A stretch of DNA of 64,000 bases from Shinella kummerowiae (GTDB taxonomy: Bacteria > Pseudomonadota > Alphaproteobacteria > Rhizobiales > Rhizobiaceae), in assembly GCF_009827055.1 (NCBI RefSeq), contig NZ_WUMK01000003.1:310001-374000 (forward strand), in the 5' to 3' direction. Shown piece after piece: positions 28,743 to 34,248 of this stretch (the first letter of the stretch is position 1; the number at the start of each line of letters is the position of its first letter). Under the pieces are notes generated by a model. It was not told the origin of the DNA and searched no databases. It worked only from the letters and a program-made list of their open reading frames with translations. The position numbers and the translations under genes were made by a program.

Positions 28743-29489
28743 TCAAAAATTGCTCTGAAGCCGATAGCGCGAGCCCGGGTAAAGCAGACGCACCGCCGTC
28801 ACCACGCGATCTTGCGACCACGTTCGGCGGCGAATGAGGATGCAGGGTTCCGACCGGGCGATCGCCAGTAGTTTACACTCCCACGGCTGCGGCAGCACCG
28901 CTTCGATGAACTGTTCCGTCTTGGCGATGGGCGCGATGCTGGTCAGGAACGCGTTTGGCGTCGTGCGGGAAAAATCCTGTTTCAGATAATCCGGCGCGAC
29001 GGCGGGGTTGACGAAGCGATCCTCCAGCTGGATCGGCACATCGTCCTCATTGTGCACGATGACGGAGTGAAAGGATTGCGCGCCGATATCGAGCTCCAGC
29101 GCGGCGGCAAGCTCATGTCCGCAGGTCTCAGCCTGGGCAAGGATGAGGTCCATCCGGTGGACCGCGCCACGCTCCAGAATCTCGTCGGCGATGTTCCGTA
29201 CGCCGAGCGCCAGCGCGCTGCGTTTTTTCGGCGCGACAAAGGAACCCTTGCCCTGCACGCGAGTGATCACACCCTCGTTTGCAAGCTCGCGGAGCGCCCG
29301 GTTCGCCGTCATGCGGCTGACGCCGAGCGTGTCCACCAGTTCATTTTCGGATGGGATGCGATGGTTGACCGGCCATTCGCCGGTTTCGATGCGCGCCCGG
29401 ATTTCCGTTTTCATGCGCTCGTAGATCGGCGCCGCGCGGTCCTTCGCGTCCCTTGCCAAAAGGCCGGTTTCTTCGTTCAGTATCGCCAC
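28743..29489 (-). CDS. hutC: GntR/UTRA family histidine utilisation repressor
   Basis: A 248-residue HutC-type repressor. The GntR wHTH is PIYERMKTEIRARIETGEWP then IPSENELVDTLGVSRMTANR and ALRELANEGVITRVQGKGSF. The UTRA effector domain follows (VHNEDDVPIQLEDRFVNP, then FLTSIAPIAKTEQFIEAVLP). Family members respond to urocanate and repress hut genes. The start is GTG 29489 with GGGGAGAG. It is divergent from hutXWV, the standard arrangement, and likely controls both sides through the sites in the 473-base gap. Confidence 0.9.
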   Translation of the reverse strand: MAILNEETGLLARDAKDRAAPIYERMKTEIRARIETGEWPVNHRIPSENELVDTLGVSRMTANRALRELANEGVITRVQGKGSFVAPKKRSALALGVRNIADEILERGAVHRMDLILAQAETCGHELAAALELDIGAQSFHSVIVHNEDDVPIQLEDRFVNPAVAPDYLKQDFSRTTPNAFLTSIAPIAKTEQFIEAVLPQPWECKLLAIARSEPCILIRRRTWSQDRVVTAVRLLYPGSRYRLQSNF

Positions 29490-29962
29490 GGCTCTCCCCG
29501 CATTCCAATCAGCATCCGCCTACAGGTTCTATACGACCCAGGTAAGCATGCTTTTTGATTCACGTCACTTTCTTGTCTAGCAGAAGTTGACATGTCCCAT
29601 ATACAACTCACACACATTCCACCGGCTTTCCTATACAGCTTCCGACAAATAATCGACTTGCGCAAGCATGGCGTAAAGATCGGTCAAATTGCGGGCACAG
29701 ACAACCTACCGAGACAAGCTACGCCAGAAAATTACCCATAACTCTCGAATCTCGCAACATCAGGCATCTCCAGCGCCACCAGACGCAACAACGCTATCGA
29801 CACCCCGGAAAATCACACGAAAAGCGACATTAAATGTCGCTCAAAGACACGCACCATCGTCAACGGAACAGGATAGTTGTCTACCAAGTTGTATAGTGAA
29901 CTTCACGAAAGGCAAAAATCGCTGGTTTTCAACGTTACCATCATCAAAAAAGGGGAACTGAC
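29490..29962. promoter_or_regulatory. hutC-hutX divergent control region with putative HutC sites
   Basis: These 473 bases are distinctly AT-richer than the surroundings and hold no gene. Related motifs occur at both ends: TTGTCTAGCA near 29573 and TTGTCTACCA near 29877; ATATACAAC (29599-29607) and its near inverse GTTGTATAG (29888-29896). These resemble the TTGTATATACAA-like sites of GntR/HutC proteins. A 19-base palindrome at 29823-29841 is listed separately. Confidence 0.55.
29823..29841. promoter_or_regulatory. 19-bp perfect palindrome upstream of hutX
   Basis: AGCGACATTAAATGTCGCT has exact 9-base arms around one central base, 122 bases before the hutX start codon. It differs from the HutC-like motifs nearby, so a second regulator may act here (inference). 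Confidence 0.5.
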
Positions 29963-30985
29963 ATGCTGAATTCCAACCTGAAATACGCGCTTCTCGCCGC
30001 CGCCGCCGCCTTCATCGGCGTCTCCACCGGCACGGCGCAGGCCTCCTATTGCGGCGACGGCAAGACCGTCACCTTTGCCGGCATCGACTGGGAAAGCGGC
30101 GCCTTCATCACCGAAGTCATGAAGGAAATCCTCTCCAAGGGTTACGACTGCAAGGTCGATTCCATCCCCGGCAACTCGGTAACGCTGGAACAGGCGACCG
30201 CCAACAACGACGTGCAGATCTTCGCGGAAGAATGGATCGGCCGCTCCGACGTCTGGAACAAGGCAGCAGAAGCCGGCCAGGTGAAATCGGTCGGCAAGAC
30301 CTTCGTCGGCGCTGCGGAAGGCTGGTTCGTGCCGGAATATCTCGTCAAGGGCGACGGCGCGAAGGCACCGGACCTCAAGAGCGTCGAGCAGCTTTCCGAT
30401 CCGAAGTTCGTCGAACTCTTCACGGATCCGGAGGAGCCGACCAAGGGCCGCTTCCTGAACTGCCCGTCGGGCTGGACCTGCGAGGGCGTCAACACGGCCA
30501 AGCTTGAAGCCTACAAGCTCGGCGAGACATATGTGAACTTCCGTCCCGGCACCGGCACGGCGCTCGATGCGGCCATTGCCGCCGCCTACCTCCAGCAGGA
30601 GCCGATGCTCTTCTACTACTGGAGCCCGACGGCGATCATGGGCAAGTACAAGCTCGTCCAGCTCGAGGAGCCGGCCTATAGCGAAGCCTGCTGGAAGGAA
30701 CTGACCAGCGCCGACGGCAAGCGTGATGCCGGTTGCGCCTTCCCCTCCGTCGAAGTGGCGTACGGCGTCAACAGCACCTTTGCCGGCGAGGCCCCGGAAA
30801 TCATGGAAATCCTGGAAAAGGCGACCTTCCCGCTGGAAGAGGTCAATGCCAGCCTCGCCTACATGACCGACCAGAAGGTCGACGCGACCGCGGCTGCCAA
30901 GAACTTCCTGCAGACCAAGGCTGACGTCTGGGGCGGTTGGGTCTCGGCGGATGCCAAGGCGCGCATCGAAGCGGCCGTCAAGTAA
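29963..30985 (+). CDS. hutX: Histidine/betaine-type (QAT family) ABC substrate-binding protein HutX
   Basis: A 340-residue periplasmic binding protein of the ProX/OpuAC type. A signal peptide with core LLAAAAAFIGVSTGTAQA ends near residue 27. The mature part has TVTFAGIDWESGAFITEVMK, EEWIGRSDVW, and FRPGTGTALDAAIAAAYLQQ, with aromatic residues of the ligand box (YYWSPTAIMG). In rhizobia the HutXWV transporter takes up histidine as well as proline or betaines. The AGGGGAAC before the ATG is a good ribosome site. It is followed by a hairpin and then the permease gene. Confidence 0.87.
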   Translation: MLNSNLKYALLAAAAAFIGVSTGTAQASYCGDGKTVTFAGIDWESGAFITEVMKEILSKGYDCKVDSIPGNSVTLEQATANNDVQIFAEEWIGRSDVWNKAAEAGQVKSVGKTFVGAAEGWFVPEYLVKGDGAKAPDLKSVEQLSDPKFVELFTDPEEPTKGRFLNCPSGWTCEGVNTAKLEAYKLGETYVNFRPGTGTALDAAIAAAYLQQEPMLFYYWSPTAIMGKYKLVQLEEPAYSEACWKELTSADGKRDAGCAFPSVEVAYGVNSTFAGEAPEIMEILEKATFPLEEVNASLAYMTDQKVDATAAAKNFLQTKADVWGGWVSADAKARIEAAVK

Positions 30986-31084: not shown

Positions 31085-31942
31085 ATGTTTCCTGAAGCTT
31101 TTCACATTTCCATTCGAGGCCCCATCAACGACTTTGTGCAGTCGCTGGTGGTGAACTACGGTTTCGTCTTCAAGGCGATCTCGCAAACCCTCCTTCAGGC
31201 GATCCTCTTCGTCGAATGGATCTTGCGCGGACTGCCCTGGTGGGCGGTCTTCATCATCTTCCTGGCGCTCGCCTGGTTCGCCTCGAAGAAGATCGCACTG
31301 GTCGTCACGGTCGCCGTCATGCTGTTTGCCGTCGGCGCGCTCGGGCTCTGGGACCTGACGATGCAGACGCTGGCGCTGATGCTGATCGCCAGCCTCATCT
31401 CCGTCGCCATCGGCGTGCCGATGGGCATCTGGCTTGCGAAAAGCGAGCTGATGCGGCGCATCACGCTGCCCGTGCTCGACGTCATGCAGACCATGCCGAG
31501 CTTCGTCTACCTCATTCCGGCGATCATGCTCTTCGGCCTCGGCAAGGTTCCCGCCGTGCTCGCCACGATCATCTATGCCGTACCACCGCTCATCCGCCTC
31601 ACCGATCTCGGCATCCGCCAGGTGGACAGCGAAGTCGTCGAAGCCGCGACGGCCTTCGGCGGCAGCCCGCCGCAGATTCTCTTCGGTGTCGAACTGCCAC
31701 TCGCCACCCCCACCATCATGGCCGGCCTCAACCAGACGATCATGATGGCGCTCTCCATGGTCGTCGTCGCCTCGATGATCGGCGCGCGCGGCCTCGGCGA
31801 GCAGGTGCTGAACGGCATCCAGACGCTCGACGTCGGCAAGGGGCTGGAAGCCGGCCTCGGCATCGTCATCCTTGCGATCGTGCTCGATCGCATCACGCAG
31901 GGTTTTGGCCAGATGAGCCGGAAGGAGCGCGGCAATGACTGA
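31085..31942 (+). CDS. hutW: ProW-type ABC permease HutW
   Basis: A 285-residue inner-membrane permease of the glycine betaine/histidine (QAT) family. Hydrophobic spans include WWAVFIIFLALAWFASKKIA and VVTVAVMLFAVGALGLW. Family motifs are TMPSFVYLIPAIMLFGLGKV, the EAA loop VEAATAFGGSPPQILFGVEL and LPLATPTIMAGLNQTIMMAL. The start is ATG 31085 in the CCACCGATG context. Its stop overlaps the hutV start by 8 bases. Confidence 0.88.
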   Translation: MFPEAFHISIRGPINDFVQSLVVNYGFVFKAISQTLLQAILFVEWILRGLPWWAVFIIFLALAWFASKKIALVVTVAVMLFAVGALGLWDLTMQTLALMLIASLISVAIGVPMGIWLAKSELMRRITLPVLDVMQTMPSFVYLIPAIMLFGLGKVPAVLATIIYAVPPLIRLTDLGIRQVDSEVVEAATAFGGSPPQILFGVELPLATPTIMAGLNQTIMMALSMVVVASMIGARGLGEQVLNGIQTLDVGKGLEAGLGIVILAIVLDRITQGFGQMSRKERGND

Positions 31943-32765
31943 GATCAAGATCCGCAACGTATCCAAGATCTTCGGCGGCAACTGGAAGTCGGCGCTCGCC
32001 ATGACCCAGCAGGGCGCCGACAAGGGCGAGATCCTCGCCAAGACCGGCTGCAGCGTCGGCCTCGACAATGTCAGCCTCGATATCGCCGGCGGCCGCATCT
32101 TCGTCATCATGGGCCTGTCCGGCTCGGGGAAATCGACGCTGGTGCGCCATATCAACCGCCTGATCGAGCCGACGAGCGGGGAAATCCTGGTCGACGGCAG
32201 CAATGTGCTCGACCTGAAACCGAAGGACCTGCGTGACTTCCGCAACCGCCGGGTCAGCATGGTGTTCCAGAATTTCGGGCTGATGCCGCACCGTACCGTG
32301 TTGCAGAATGTCGTCTACGGCCAGCGCGTGCGCGGGCTTACGAAGGACGACGCCAAGCCGATCGGCATGAAGTGGATCGAGACGGTTGGCCTTGCGGGCT
32401 ACGAGAACAAGCTTCCGCACCAGCTTTCCGGCGGCATGAAGCAGCGCGTCGGCCTCGCGCGGGCGCTGGCGGCGGATACCGACGTCATCCTGATGGACGA
32501 GGCCTTTTCCGCGCTCGATCCGCTGATCCGCGCCGACATGCAGGACCAGCTTCTCCAGCTCGAGAAGAATCTGCACAAGACCATCGTCTTCATCACGCAC
32601 GATCTCGACGAGGCCTTGCGCATCGGCGCGCAGATCGCGATCCTGAAGGACGGCAAGCTGGTGCAGGTCGGAACCCCGAGCGAAATCCTCAACAGCCCCG
32701 CCAACGACTATGTCGCCCGCTTCGTGCAGCGCCGCGCCGGCGCAGGAGAAAGCCAGCATGCCTGA
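31935..32765 (+). CDS. hutV: ProV-type ABC ATP-binding protein HutV
   Basis: A 276-residue ATPase. It has the N-terminal ProV-like extension (KIFGGNWKSALAMTQQGADK), Walker A (GLSGSGKSTLVRH), Q-loop (VFQNFGLMPHRTV), signature LSGGMKQRVGLARALA, Walker B (VILMDEAFSALDP) and H-loop (ITHDLDEAL). It has no CBS domains, being shorter than enterobacterial ProV (about 400 residues). It overlaps hutW and the ammonia-lyase homologue by 8 bases on either side, so expression is coupled. Confidence 0.9.
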   Translation: MTEIKIRNVSKIFGGNWKSALAMTQQGADKGEILAKTGCSVGLDNVSLDIAGGRIFVIMGLSGSGKSTLVRHINRLIEPTSGEILVDGSNVLDLKPKDLRDFRNRRVSMVFQNFGLMPHRTVLQNVVYGQRVRGLTKDDAKPIGMKWIETVGLAGYENKLPHQLSGGMKQRVGLARALAADTDVILMDEAFSALDPLIRADMQDQLLQLEKNLHKTIVFITHDLDEALRIGAQIAILKDGKLVQVGTPSEILNSPANDYVARFVQRRAGAGESQHA

Positions 32766-34248
32766 GACGATCGTTCTCGATCGCCCCCTCACCTGGCAGG
32801 AGATCGCCGCCATTGCCAAAGGCGCGGCGCTCTCCCTGTCGGACAAGACATGGCAGCGCATCGCCGATGCGCGCGCCATCGTCGATGCGCTCGTGGCAAA
32901 ACGCGTGCGCGGCTACGGCATCAACACGGGCGTCGGCGCACTCTGCGATGTGATCGTCGACATTCCGCAGCAGCAGGCGCTGTCGCGCAACATCCTGCTC
33001 AGCCATGCCTGCGGTGTCGGCGAGCCGCTCGGCCGGGAAGAGACCCGCGCGGTGATGGCCGCCCAGATTGCCAATTTTTCCCATGGCTATTCCGGCGTGC
33101 GTGTGGAGACGGTCGAAACGCTGCTGGCGTTGCTCAACGCCGATATCCCGCCCATCATTCCGTCCAAGGGATCGGTCGGTTACCTGACGCACGCCGCCGC
33201 CATCGGCCTCGTGCTGATCGGCGAAGGCGAGGCGCGCCACAAGGGTGAGACGATCTCCGGCAAGCAGGCCATGGAGATGCTCGGTCGCGCGCCGCTCGTG
33301 CTTGGGGCCAAGGAAGGCCTCAGCCTCGTCAACGGCACGCCCTGCGCCACCGGCCTTGCGAGCCTAGCTATTGCCCGCACGACGCATCTGCTCGATTGGG
33401 CCGACGCGGCCGCCGCGATGAGCTACGAAAATCTCGGCGCGCAGGCCGACCCGTTTGCCGCCGCGCCGCTGGCGCTGCGCACTTCGCCCGGCCTCCAGAC
33501 GGTTGGCGGCAACCTCCGCCGCCTGCTCGACGGCAGCCCGTTGCTGGCGCAGTCTGCAGGCTCACGCACGCAGGATCCGCTCAGCCTGCGCGGTGTGCCG
33601 CAAGTGCATGGCGCGGTGCGCGACAGCGTCGCGCAGGTTGCCGAGGTCGTGAACCGGGAACTTGCGAGCGTCACGGACAATCCGGTCGTGGCGGGAACAC
33701 CGGAAGCGCCCGAAGTGCATTCACAGGCGCATGCCATCGGCGCCGCGCTCGGGCTTGCCATGGACGCGCTTGGCACCGCCGCCGCGGAGCTGGCCGCCAT
33801 TTGCGAGCGCCGCATCGACCGGCTCGTCAATCCACTCGTCAGCAACCTGCCTGCCTTTCTGGCGGAAGGCAGCGGCGTGGCCTCGGGGTTCATGATCATC
33901 CAGTACACGGCCGCAGGCCTTGTTGCCGAGAACCGCCGCCTCGCGGCACCCGCCAGCCTCGACGGCGGCATCACCTCGGCGCTTCAGGAAGACATTCTCA
34001 CCCACGCGACACCCGCCGCCGACAAGGCGCTGGCCATCATCGCCAATCTTGAAACCGTTCTGGCCATCGAGGTGATGAGCGCCGCCCAGGCCTATGACAT
34101 GCAGCCGGGACAAAATGGCAACGCGGCCGGCACCGGCGCCCTTTACGAGCGTGTCCGTGCGATCGTTCCGGTCTATCGTGACGACCGGCCGCTCAATGGT
34201 CTGCTCGCAAAAGTTCGTGACCTGCTGAGCAAGATGGCAGCTTTCTAA
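32758..34248 (+). CDS. hutH: HutH (histidine ammonia-lyase) homologue lacking the MIO Ala-Ser-Gly
   Basis: A 496-residue member of the HAL/PAL aromatic amino acid lyase superfamily, coupled to hutV by an 8-base overlap. The conserved Tyr53 (GYGINTGVG) and His83 (LSHACGVGEP) stand at the same positions as in the Pseudomonas putida enzyme. The cofactor segment does not: canonical proteins read GSVG then ASGDLAPL, whereas here GSVG (138-141) is followed directly by YLTHAAAIG. The later conserved Asn is then shifted to N192 (canonical 195), so exactly three residues are missing where Ala142-Ser143-Gly144 cyclise into MIO. The Tyr280 equivalent is Leu (QDPLSLR, Arg kept), while QED (E411) is kept. 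The reading frame is intact throughout. Canonical MIO lyase chemistry should not be possible; a different reaction or a binding/regulatory role is likely. Confidence 0.85.
   Translation: MPETIVLDRPLTWQEIAAIAKGAALSLSDKTWQRIADARAIVDALVAKRVRGYGINTGVGALCDVIVDIPQQQALSRNILLSHACGVGEPLGREETRAVMAAQIANFSHGYSGVRVETVETLLALLNADIPPIIPSKGSVGYLTHAAAIGLVLIGEGEARHKGETISGKQAMEMLGRAPLVLGAKEGLSLVNGTPCATGLASLAIARTTHLLDWADAAAAMSYENLGAQADPFAAAPLALRTSPGLQTVGGNLRRLLDGSPLLAQSAGSRTQDPLSLRGVPQVHGAVRDSVAQVAEVVNRELASVTDNPVVAGTPEAPEVHSQAHAIGAALGLAMDALGTAAAELAAICERRIDRLVNPLVSNLPAFLAEGSGVASGFMIIQYTAAGLVAENRRLAAPASLDGGITSALQEDILTHATPAADKALAIIANLETVLAIEVMSAAQAYDMQPGQNGNAAGTGALYERVRAIVPVYRDDRPLNGLLAKVRDLLSKMAAF

Follow-up and report, generated by a model that had tools for sequence, protein, structure and literature searches.

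Introduction

In histidine ammonia-lyase (HAL, the HutH protein; EC 4.3.1.3) the amine of the substrate becomes a leaving group by adding to the MIO cofactor, while the equivalents of His83 and Glu411 hold the imidazole and that of Arg278 holds the carboxylate, the combination of Ser82-His83 and Glu being typical of histidine-type specificity. The sole characterized MIO-free relative that we found is ergothionase, the ergothioneine trimethylamine-lyase of Treponema denticola (6s7j, 6s7q), a solved enzyme that eliminates trimethylamine on the HAL fold without MIO, according to the available portion of the source (PMC13405746). HutH1 of Pseudomonas fluorescens SBW25 is described as a histidase, and MIO loss is not mentioned in the available portion of that paper (PMC8871633). 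The literature that was covered, which lay mostly outside subscription journals, contained no report of a hercynine lyase or of MIO loss in HutH1/HutH2. The Seebeck group reportedly works on ergothioneine catabolism. Herein we describe HutH relatives without MIO that form a conserved class, are annotated as histidine ammonia-lyase, and, judging from sequence comparisons, are most likely hercynine trimethylamine-lyases.

A HutH Homolog That Lacks the MIO Triad

The gene of interest, termed H2 here together with its orthologs, is located in the window (the whole 64-kb stretch of DNA that was analyzed), in which a divergent HutC gene is followed by HutX, HutW, HutV, and H2. The transporter genes were taken from the list of open reading frames and not from the simple gene caller. 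The features are as follows.

28743 to 29489, minus strand: HutC-type GntR repressor, divergent (TIGR02018, 293.3 bits, cut-off 220)
29963 to 30985, plus strand: HutX, OpuAC-type substrate-binding protein (OpuAC, 206.1 bits)
31085 to 31942, plus strand: HutW, ABC permease (best NCBIfam model choline ABC permease, 293.7 bits, below the cut-off of 363)
31935 to 32765, plus strand: HutV, ABC ATPase of the betaine/proline/choline type (TIGR01186, 348.7 bits, cut-off 326.6)
32758 to 34248, plus strand: H2, MIO-free HutH homolog of 496 aa, proposed hercynine trimethylamine-lyase (PF00221, 501.8 bits; 112 orthologs with the same loop)
33169 to 33192, plus strand: codons of GSVGYLTH, residues 138-145 (GSVGASGDLAP in HutH), from sequence and alignment
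33181 to 33183, plus strand: Tyr142 codon of H2, within the GSVGYLTH codons
33580 to 33582, plus strand: Leu275 codon of H2, equivalent of HAL Tyr280, from alignment with HAL

The first-pass annotation had described H2 as an intact gene that overlaps hutV by 8 bases and lies behind hutC. The reading frames agree with the first two statements, and hutC is indeed upstream but is transcribed divergently rather than in the same direction. The PF00221 match is full-length (residues 11-467; profile search), and translation and alignment both place Tyr53 and His83 at the canonical numbers, GSVG at 138-141 followed by YLTHAAAIG, and the next conserved Asn at 192, as had been noticed. Where HutH reads GSVG-ASGD-LAPLAHM, H2 reads GSVG-Y-LTHAAAIG, so that a lone Tyr occupies the place of ASGD, the stretch with the MIO triad, and the MIO serine is missing. 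The earlier view that the tripeptide had been cleanly deleted therefore holds for the net loss of three residues but not for its manner, as a single Tyr142 stands for four residues; deletion of A-S-G and deletion of S-G-D with A changed to Tyr are indistinguishable, and Ser143 is missing in both cases. The HutH-defining Ala-Ser-Gly triad does not occur elsewhere in the active site in HMMER alignments with the HALs of P. putida, Thermoplasma, and Trypanosoma.

The remainder of the site is largely that of HAL. Residues Tyr53, His83, Asn192, Arg278, and Glu411 of H2 align with HAL Tyr53, His83, Asn195, Arg283, and Glu414, and the Ser82-His83 pair and the Gln are likewise kept. The equivalent of the active-site Tyr280 is Leu275, as proposed previously (Leu in 112/112 orthologs), and HAL Phe329 is lost as well, being Ala326. 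The best sequence matches of H2 are to the HALs 7tqr (269.6 bits) and 1b8f (253.9 bits), with Z scores of 46.2 and 44.2, and H2 shares the operon family of HutH; it differs in having no MIO triad, Leu for Tyr280, and Ala or Pro for Phe329, and in co-occurring with a canonical hutH. Ergothionase is more distant in sequence (27% identity, 167.0 bits) and is like H2 in having no MIO, in having Leu for Tyr280 (6s7j reads QDPLSFR and has no ASG triad), and in keeping the active-site Tyr, His, Arg, and Glu. Its loop, however, is one residue short rather than three, it retains Phe at 329, it lacks the Asn at 195, and its relatives are located with Ert genes whereas H2 is located with hut genes.

An AlphaFold2 model of H2 (built from 31 sequences) has a pLDDT of 87.3, with poor definition of the segments that include Tyr53 (53-63) and Glu411 (406-413). 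A fold search with this model returned HALs (Z 43.4-46.2), tyrosine aminomutase (45), and ergothionase (42.8), the best PDB matches all being of the aromatic amino acid lyase family. Such a search gives the fold, not the function, and HAL and ergothionase are not separated by the modeled structure.

Conservation and Distribution

Among distinct sequences of at least 440 aa, shorter ones being left out, Tyr142 and the short loop are found in 112/112 H2 proteins and ASGD in 69/69 HutH proteins, although the two groups were sorted by the loop itself and the independent information lies in their being single clades in both trees and in the other residues that differ. Thirteen positions hold one residue in at least 95% of the 112 H2 proteins and another in at least 95% of the 69 HutH proteins. 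Invariant in all 112 are Y53, S82, H83, Y142, N192, Q272, L275, R278, E411, and D412, while H145 is kept in 111, and position 326, the equivalent of HAL Phe329, is Ala or Pro in the H2 clade. Five H2 pairs gave dN/dS values of 0.10-0.17. As the loop is shared by 112/112 proteins that keep the active-site residues, form a single clade, and are under such constraint, the change is neither decay nor chance; sequencing error, too, is ruled out by fixation of the loop in all of the orthologs.

Among 121 genomes of the family, 102 contain some match and 19, including that of the window, contain an H2-type match of at least 439 bits; one of these copies (G050) lies in two separate pieces and may be broken. 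All 19 also have a second match at the HutH level (224-255 bits). In a sample of 398 genomes of the phylum, 23 (again including that of the window) matched at E 1e-90 or better with the loop in each best match, and the loop is also present in all of the best 80 loci of a scan of named genomes, in one of which (L114) Asp replaces the following His. The hosts of these 80 loci are Rhizobiaceae, Thalassospira, Tistrella, Labrys, Kaistia, Acidisoma, Aureimonas, Pseudogemmobacter, a Novosphingobium bin, and Paraburkholderia/Burkholderia, and members of the H2 clade occur in alphaproteobacteria, the Rhizobiaceae among them, as well as in beta- and gammaproteobacteria. Many of the bacteria that share this conserved active site are soil dwellers. 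Open-frame searches recovered H2 in all 80 of the best named, 18/18 phylum, and 18/18 family loci, while the simple gene caller missed it in 4 of 99 regions (L039, L041, L090, L124).

Gene Neighborhood

The neighborhood counts given below cover roughly 10 kb, or a shorter span where a contig ends, and the named, phylum, and family sets of loci overlap. Within the best 80 named loci, HutC was found in 71, HutX in 48, and an ATPase just upstream of H2 in 58, and hut enzymes of some kind in 51 (HutF in 49, HutU in 30, HutI in 27, HutG in 25, and canonical hutH in 23). The corresponding numbers for the 18 phylum loci are 13 with HutC, 15 with any hut enzyme, and 10 with hutH, and for the 18 family loci 17, 8, and 5. 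Several loci have the order HutF-H2-HutI-hutH-HutG-HutU-HutD-HutC and no adjacent transporter. The suggestion that proteins with the GSVGYLTH motif might form a clade linked to hutXWV is thus upheld for the clade, and for an ABC transporter of the hutXWV or amino-acid type in many but not all loci. The HutU next to H2 in locus L115 is an ordinary urocanase (958.1 bits, cut-off 375; the thiourocanate hydratase model gives 677.1, cut-off 930). Residues Trp91, Trp171, and Trp220 of the HutX of the window align with Trp65, Trp140, and Trp188 of ProX (1r9l), which form the substrate cage of that protein.

A canonical hutH elsewhere in the genome, for which the first-pass annotation had recommended a check, is present on contig C38, together with hutF, hutI, hutG, and hutU. 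On contig C1 of the same genome there is a further PF00221 protein (L003) with the loop GSMG-CA-D, whose best PDB match is ergothionase 6s7j (183.3 bits). It is accompanied by a thiourocanate hydratase (1048.9, cut-off 930), a thiohydantoin desulfurase (601.8, cut-off 440), ErtD (801.9, cut-off 600), and ErtE (593.2, cut-off 520, although a general Zn-hydrolase model scores higher at 666.7), so that an ergothioneine utilization (Ert) cluster extends around it (L181:8436-15854). With separate lyases for ergothioneine and for histidine, the H2 of the window is the third PF00221 gene of this organism. We considered H2 as its ergothionase and ruled this out, since the ergothionase-like gene is in the Ert cluster; hence H2 is probably not for ergothioneine. 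The hydratase and desulfurase are located on C1 with L003 and not on the contig of the window, where the neighbors of H2 are hut genes.

Phylogeny of the MIO-Free Homologs

In the distinct PF00221 sequences that were compared, Tyr occupies position 280 in 73/73 with ASG and Leu occupies it in 130/131 without ASG. Those with Leu are 112 sequences that have lost three residues and 18 that have lost one, and the lone exception is L152. The group with the one-residue loss includes 6s7j, L003, and L216; the latter two adjoin genes for thiourocanate hydratase and thiohydantoin desulfurase, and ErtD is encoded near L217.

H2 is a single clade in both of the trees that were built, with support of 100/99 in the rooted one, in which 6s7j and the Ert-linked L003 and L216 fall in another group. 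That second tree was built from 39 of the 80 rows available and was rooted with L218, a protein that bears ASG and that we take to be PAL-like by its motifs. H2 joins the ergothionase group in it at 80/91, and AU tests rejected neither H2 with HutH (p-AU 0.11) nor HutH with the ergothionase group (0.34). Independent losses of MIO in H2 and ergothionase, which the first tree (no outgroup; H2 with HutH and L152) had suggested, were not upheld by the L218-rooted tree. Searches for other outgroups gave 0/299 genomes at E 1e-112 with an aminomutase model and 0/60 above the cut-off with the FlxA model.

Proposed Function of H2

The first-pass annotation had offered a pseudo-enzyme, a regulator or sensing partner of the transporter, or an MIO-free reaction. 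We favor the last of these, because the residues on the imidazole and carboxylate sides are present in 112/112 proteins, new residues are fixed, dN/dS is 0.10-0.17, and ergothionase works without MIO. Specifically, we propose that H2 is an MIO-independent lyase that converts hercynine (N-alpha-trimethyl-L-histidine, or histidine betaine) to trimethylamine and urocanate, an assignment that we regard as reasonably probable. As H2 keeps Ser82-His83 and Glu411, a histidine-derived betaine would be the simplest substrate, while the hut neighborhood and the ordinary urocanase by H2 in L115 point to urocanate rather than thiourocanate as the product. Hercynine is thus suggested by the imidazole-side residues and the hut neighborhood in combination with the three HutX Trp residues that align with the ProX cage and the precedent of ergothionase.

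The loss of MIO, the conservation, the single clade, and the gene neighborhood are direct observations, and from them we infer the substrate, the chemistry, the role of each residue, and the induction of H2. Hercynine would be imported by the co-encoded transporter (HutXWV) and bound with its imidazole held by His83 and Glu411 and its carboxylate by Arg278, with Tyr53 as the likely base. Trimethylamine would leave as a quaternary ammonium group, for which the electrophilic MIO would be unnecessary, and the replacement of MIO, Tyr280, and Phe329 by Tyr142, Leu275, and Ala/Pro326 may provide room for N(CH3)3. The urocanate would then proceed via HutU, HutI, HutF, and HutG, and it may also relieve repression by HutC.

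Several observations count against hercynine. In one subgroup the binding protein near H2 is of the amino-acid type (10 of the best 80 named loci, and 6 and 10 of the 18 loci in each of the two other sets), and 8 of 116 loci have none of the hut or transport genes that were sought within reach (L066, L069, L071, L090, L119, L123, L127, L170). A gene for a methylated-amino-acid oxidase follows H2 in L040, L045, L046, and L051 (N-methyl-L-tryptophan oxidase model 424.3, cut-off 257), which is a point in favor of hercynine, but it is present in 4/18 family, 1/18 phylum, and 0/80 best named loci. In addition, HutXWV is reported to participate in histidine uptake (PMC8871633), the fold search does not tell HAL from ergothionase, and a clade of H2 with HutH was not rejected.

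Some of these features would fit an MIO-free lyase that performs the same elimination on another modified histidine, such as N-alpha-mono- or dimethylhistidine, a ring-methylhistidine, or oxidized or S-methylated ergothioneine. The conserved imidazole-side residues of H2 are as expected for such substrates, in a subgroup H2 has a gene for the N-methyl amino acid oxidase as its neighbor, along with a binding protein of the amino-acid type, and the separate NCBIfam models for S-methyl thiourocanate processing indicate that such compounds occur in bacteria. Secondary and primary amines are, however, poorer leaving groups without MIO, and the neighbors of H2 are ordinary hut enzymes rather than those of thiourocanate, which is why we consider these substrates unlikely. 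An imidazole-free betaine (hypaphorine or some other aromatic betaine, for instance) would be in keeping with the betaine-type transporter, with the eight H2 loci outside hut clusters, and with the varied neighbors of the one-residue-loss relatives (nine such loci, L181 and L225-L232, were inspected, selected genes being scanned). This is quite improbable given that Ser82-His83 and Glu411, the signature of histidine-type specificity, are kept in 112/112 and that the usual neighbors are HutC and hut enzymes.

A catalytically dead HutH-like protein that serves as a regulator, sensor, or transporter partner could explain why the cofactor is lost in a protein co-encoded with a transporter and a repressor, but the invariance of the catalytic-site residues and the fixation of new ones (112/112), the strong purifying selection, and the demonstration by ergothionase that the HAL fold is functional without MIO all make this a poor prospect, and our analysis yielded nothing in favor of a regulatory or sensing role. 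An ordinary histidine ammonia-lyase that dispenses with MIO or makes its cofactor from other residues is very improbable, even though one Pseudomonas H2 exceeds the NCBIfam hutH cut-off (L158, 544.9 versus 539.15) and plasmid records call H2 hutH or histidine ammonia-lyase, as the MIO serine and its neighbors are missing in 112/112, the H2 of the window is below the same cut-off (454.7), and 19/19 H2-bearing family genomes have the second, HutH-level match.

More broadly, PF00221 may contain a wide MIO-free branch, made up of H2 and several one-residue-loss groups, including ergothionase, whose members would be betaine lyases with a trimethylammonium leaving group in place of the electrophilic cofactor, marked by the loss of MIO and Leu280. 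In this branch H2 would act on hercynine and so give histidine betaine access to the classical hut pathway. We consider the chances of this wider generalization to be even.

Annotation and Wider Implications

In a Pseudomonas-like genome the order of genes is hutD-hutU-permease-hutXWV-H2-hutH-permease-hutI-hutG (L158; labels by position and similarity). Its H2 (L158:9653-11158) is the one that passes the hutH equivalog cut-off and would be annotated histidine ammonia-lyase. The order hutU-hutTu-hutXWV-H2-hutH matches that described for SBW25 in the available portion of PMC8871633, and HutH1 of that strain is probably an H2 ortholog by gene order. The hutH paralog behind hutXWV in Sinorhizobium (S. 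meliloti 4H41, L110) probably belongs to the same orthologous group.

PA5093 is, we presume, a gene of the H2 type. It is given as hutG in the available portion of PMC12772324, where its mutant grows poorly on histidine and on urocanate, and we suspect a slip in the tag, since losing a urocanate-making lyase should not impair growth on urocanate.

Homology-based annotation gives the name histidine ammonia-lyase to cofactor-free proteins, in one case above a curated cut-off. If our proposal is correct, some of the apparently redundant hutH copies of Pseudomonas and rhizobia would be explained, one class of them acquiring a specific and testable role, there would be a bacterial route for histidine betaine into the hut pathway, and elimination with MIO could be compared with elimination without it in natural proteins of a single fold.

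Candidate Operators

Three candidate operator half-sites that match TTGT[AC]TA[GT] were found in the 64-kb window, all of them between hutC and hutX.

29573 to 29580, plus strand: candidate operator half-site TTGTCTAG
29599 to 29606, minus strand: candidate operator half-site TTGTATAT
29889 to 29896, plus strand: candidate operator half-site TTGTATAG

The motif was picked after the window had been viewed, and it is present in 30 of 37 hutC-side divergent intergenic regions (35 sites versus a mean of 0.9 in shuffled sequences, where the shuffles preserve base composition only and some loci represent the same genome twice, as with L034 and L077). It is absent from the 20-kb stretches L181 and L182. 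The sequence TGTAnnTACA was sought upstream of HutC in 19 loci, in 18 of which HutC was called, and was found in none. The canonical hut operon of the genome has ATGTATATACAT between hutF and hutI, which was spotted by eye. The GntR protein by that operon on C38 and the HutC of the window are 33% identical over 219 aa, and the candidate operators of the two regions differ.

Additional Observations

The protein L152 (L171:9457-11022, minus strand), from a Pseudomonas-like genome (G180), has a three-residue-short loop, GSVGYLGPEGHL, and retains both Tyr280 and Phe329. Its score exceeds the PRK09367 cut-off (538.1 versus 524). The genes nearby encode S-(hydroxymethyl)glutathione dehydrogenase and a Rieske oxygenase with a VanA_C domain and its reductase, a setting that suggests N- or O-demethylation.

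The Rhizobiaceae also contain many diverse PF00221 proteins in which the loop is one residue short (GSIGA-GDL, GSIGA-ADL, GSLGT-GDL, and others) and position 280 is Leu (L210-L217, L219, L221). One of these, L211, comes after an ABC transporter of the OpuAC/ProV (betaine) type, and an ornithine cyclodeaminase-like gene precedes L211, L213, and L214.

In L066, L069, and L071 (about 8-16 kb) H2 has a different setting, being preceded by a phosphonate-type binding protein and a fatty-acid-desaturase-like protein, and in L066 and L069 it is followed by cytochrome c, 2Fe-2S, and molybdopterin-binding proteins (families scanned in L066). Loci L119 and L117, from Rhizobium setariae and Pseudogemmobacter, both have a protein of the Pfam HalD family (L119:8792-9580) and a LysR regulator in the vicinity of H2 (scanned in L119). 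In some Sinorhizobium/Ensifer loci the gene between H2 and hutD encodes a membrane protein of 441 aa that has a Gate domain (L110:11532-12854).
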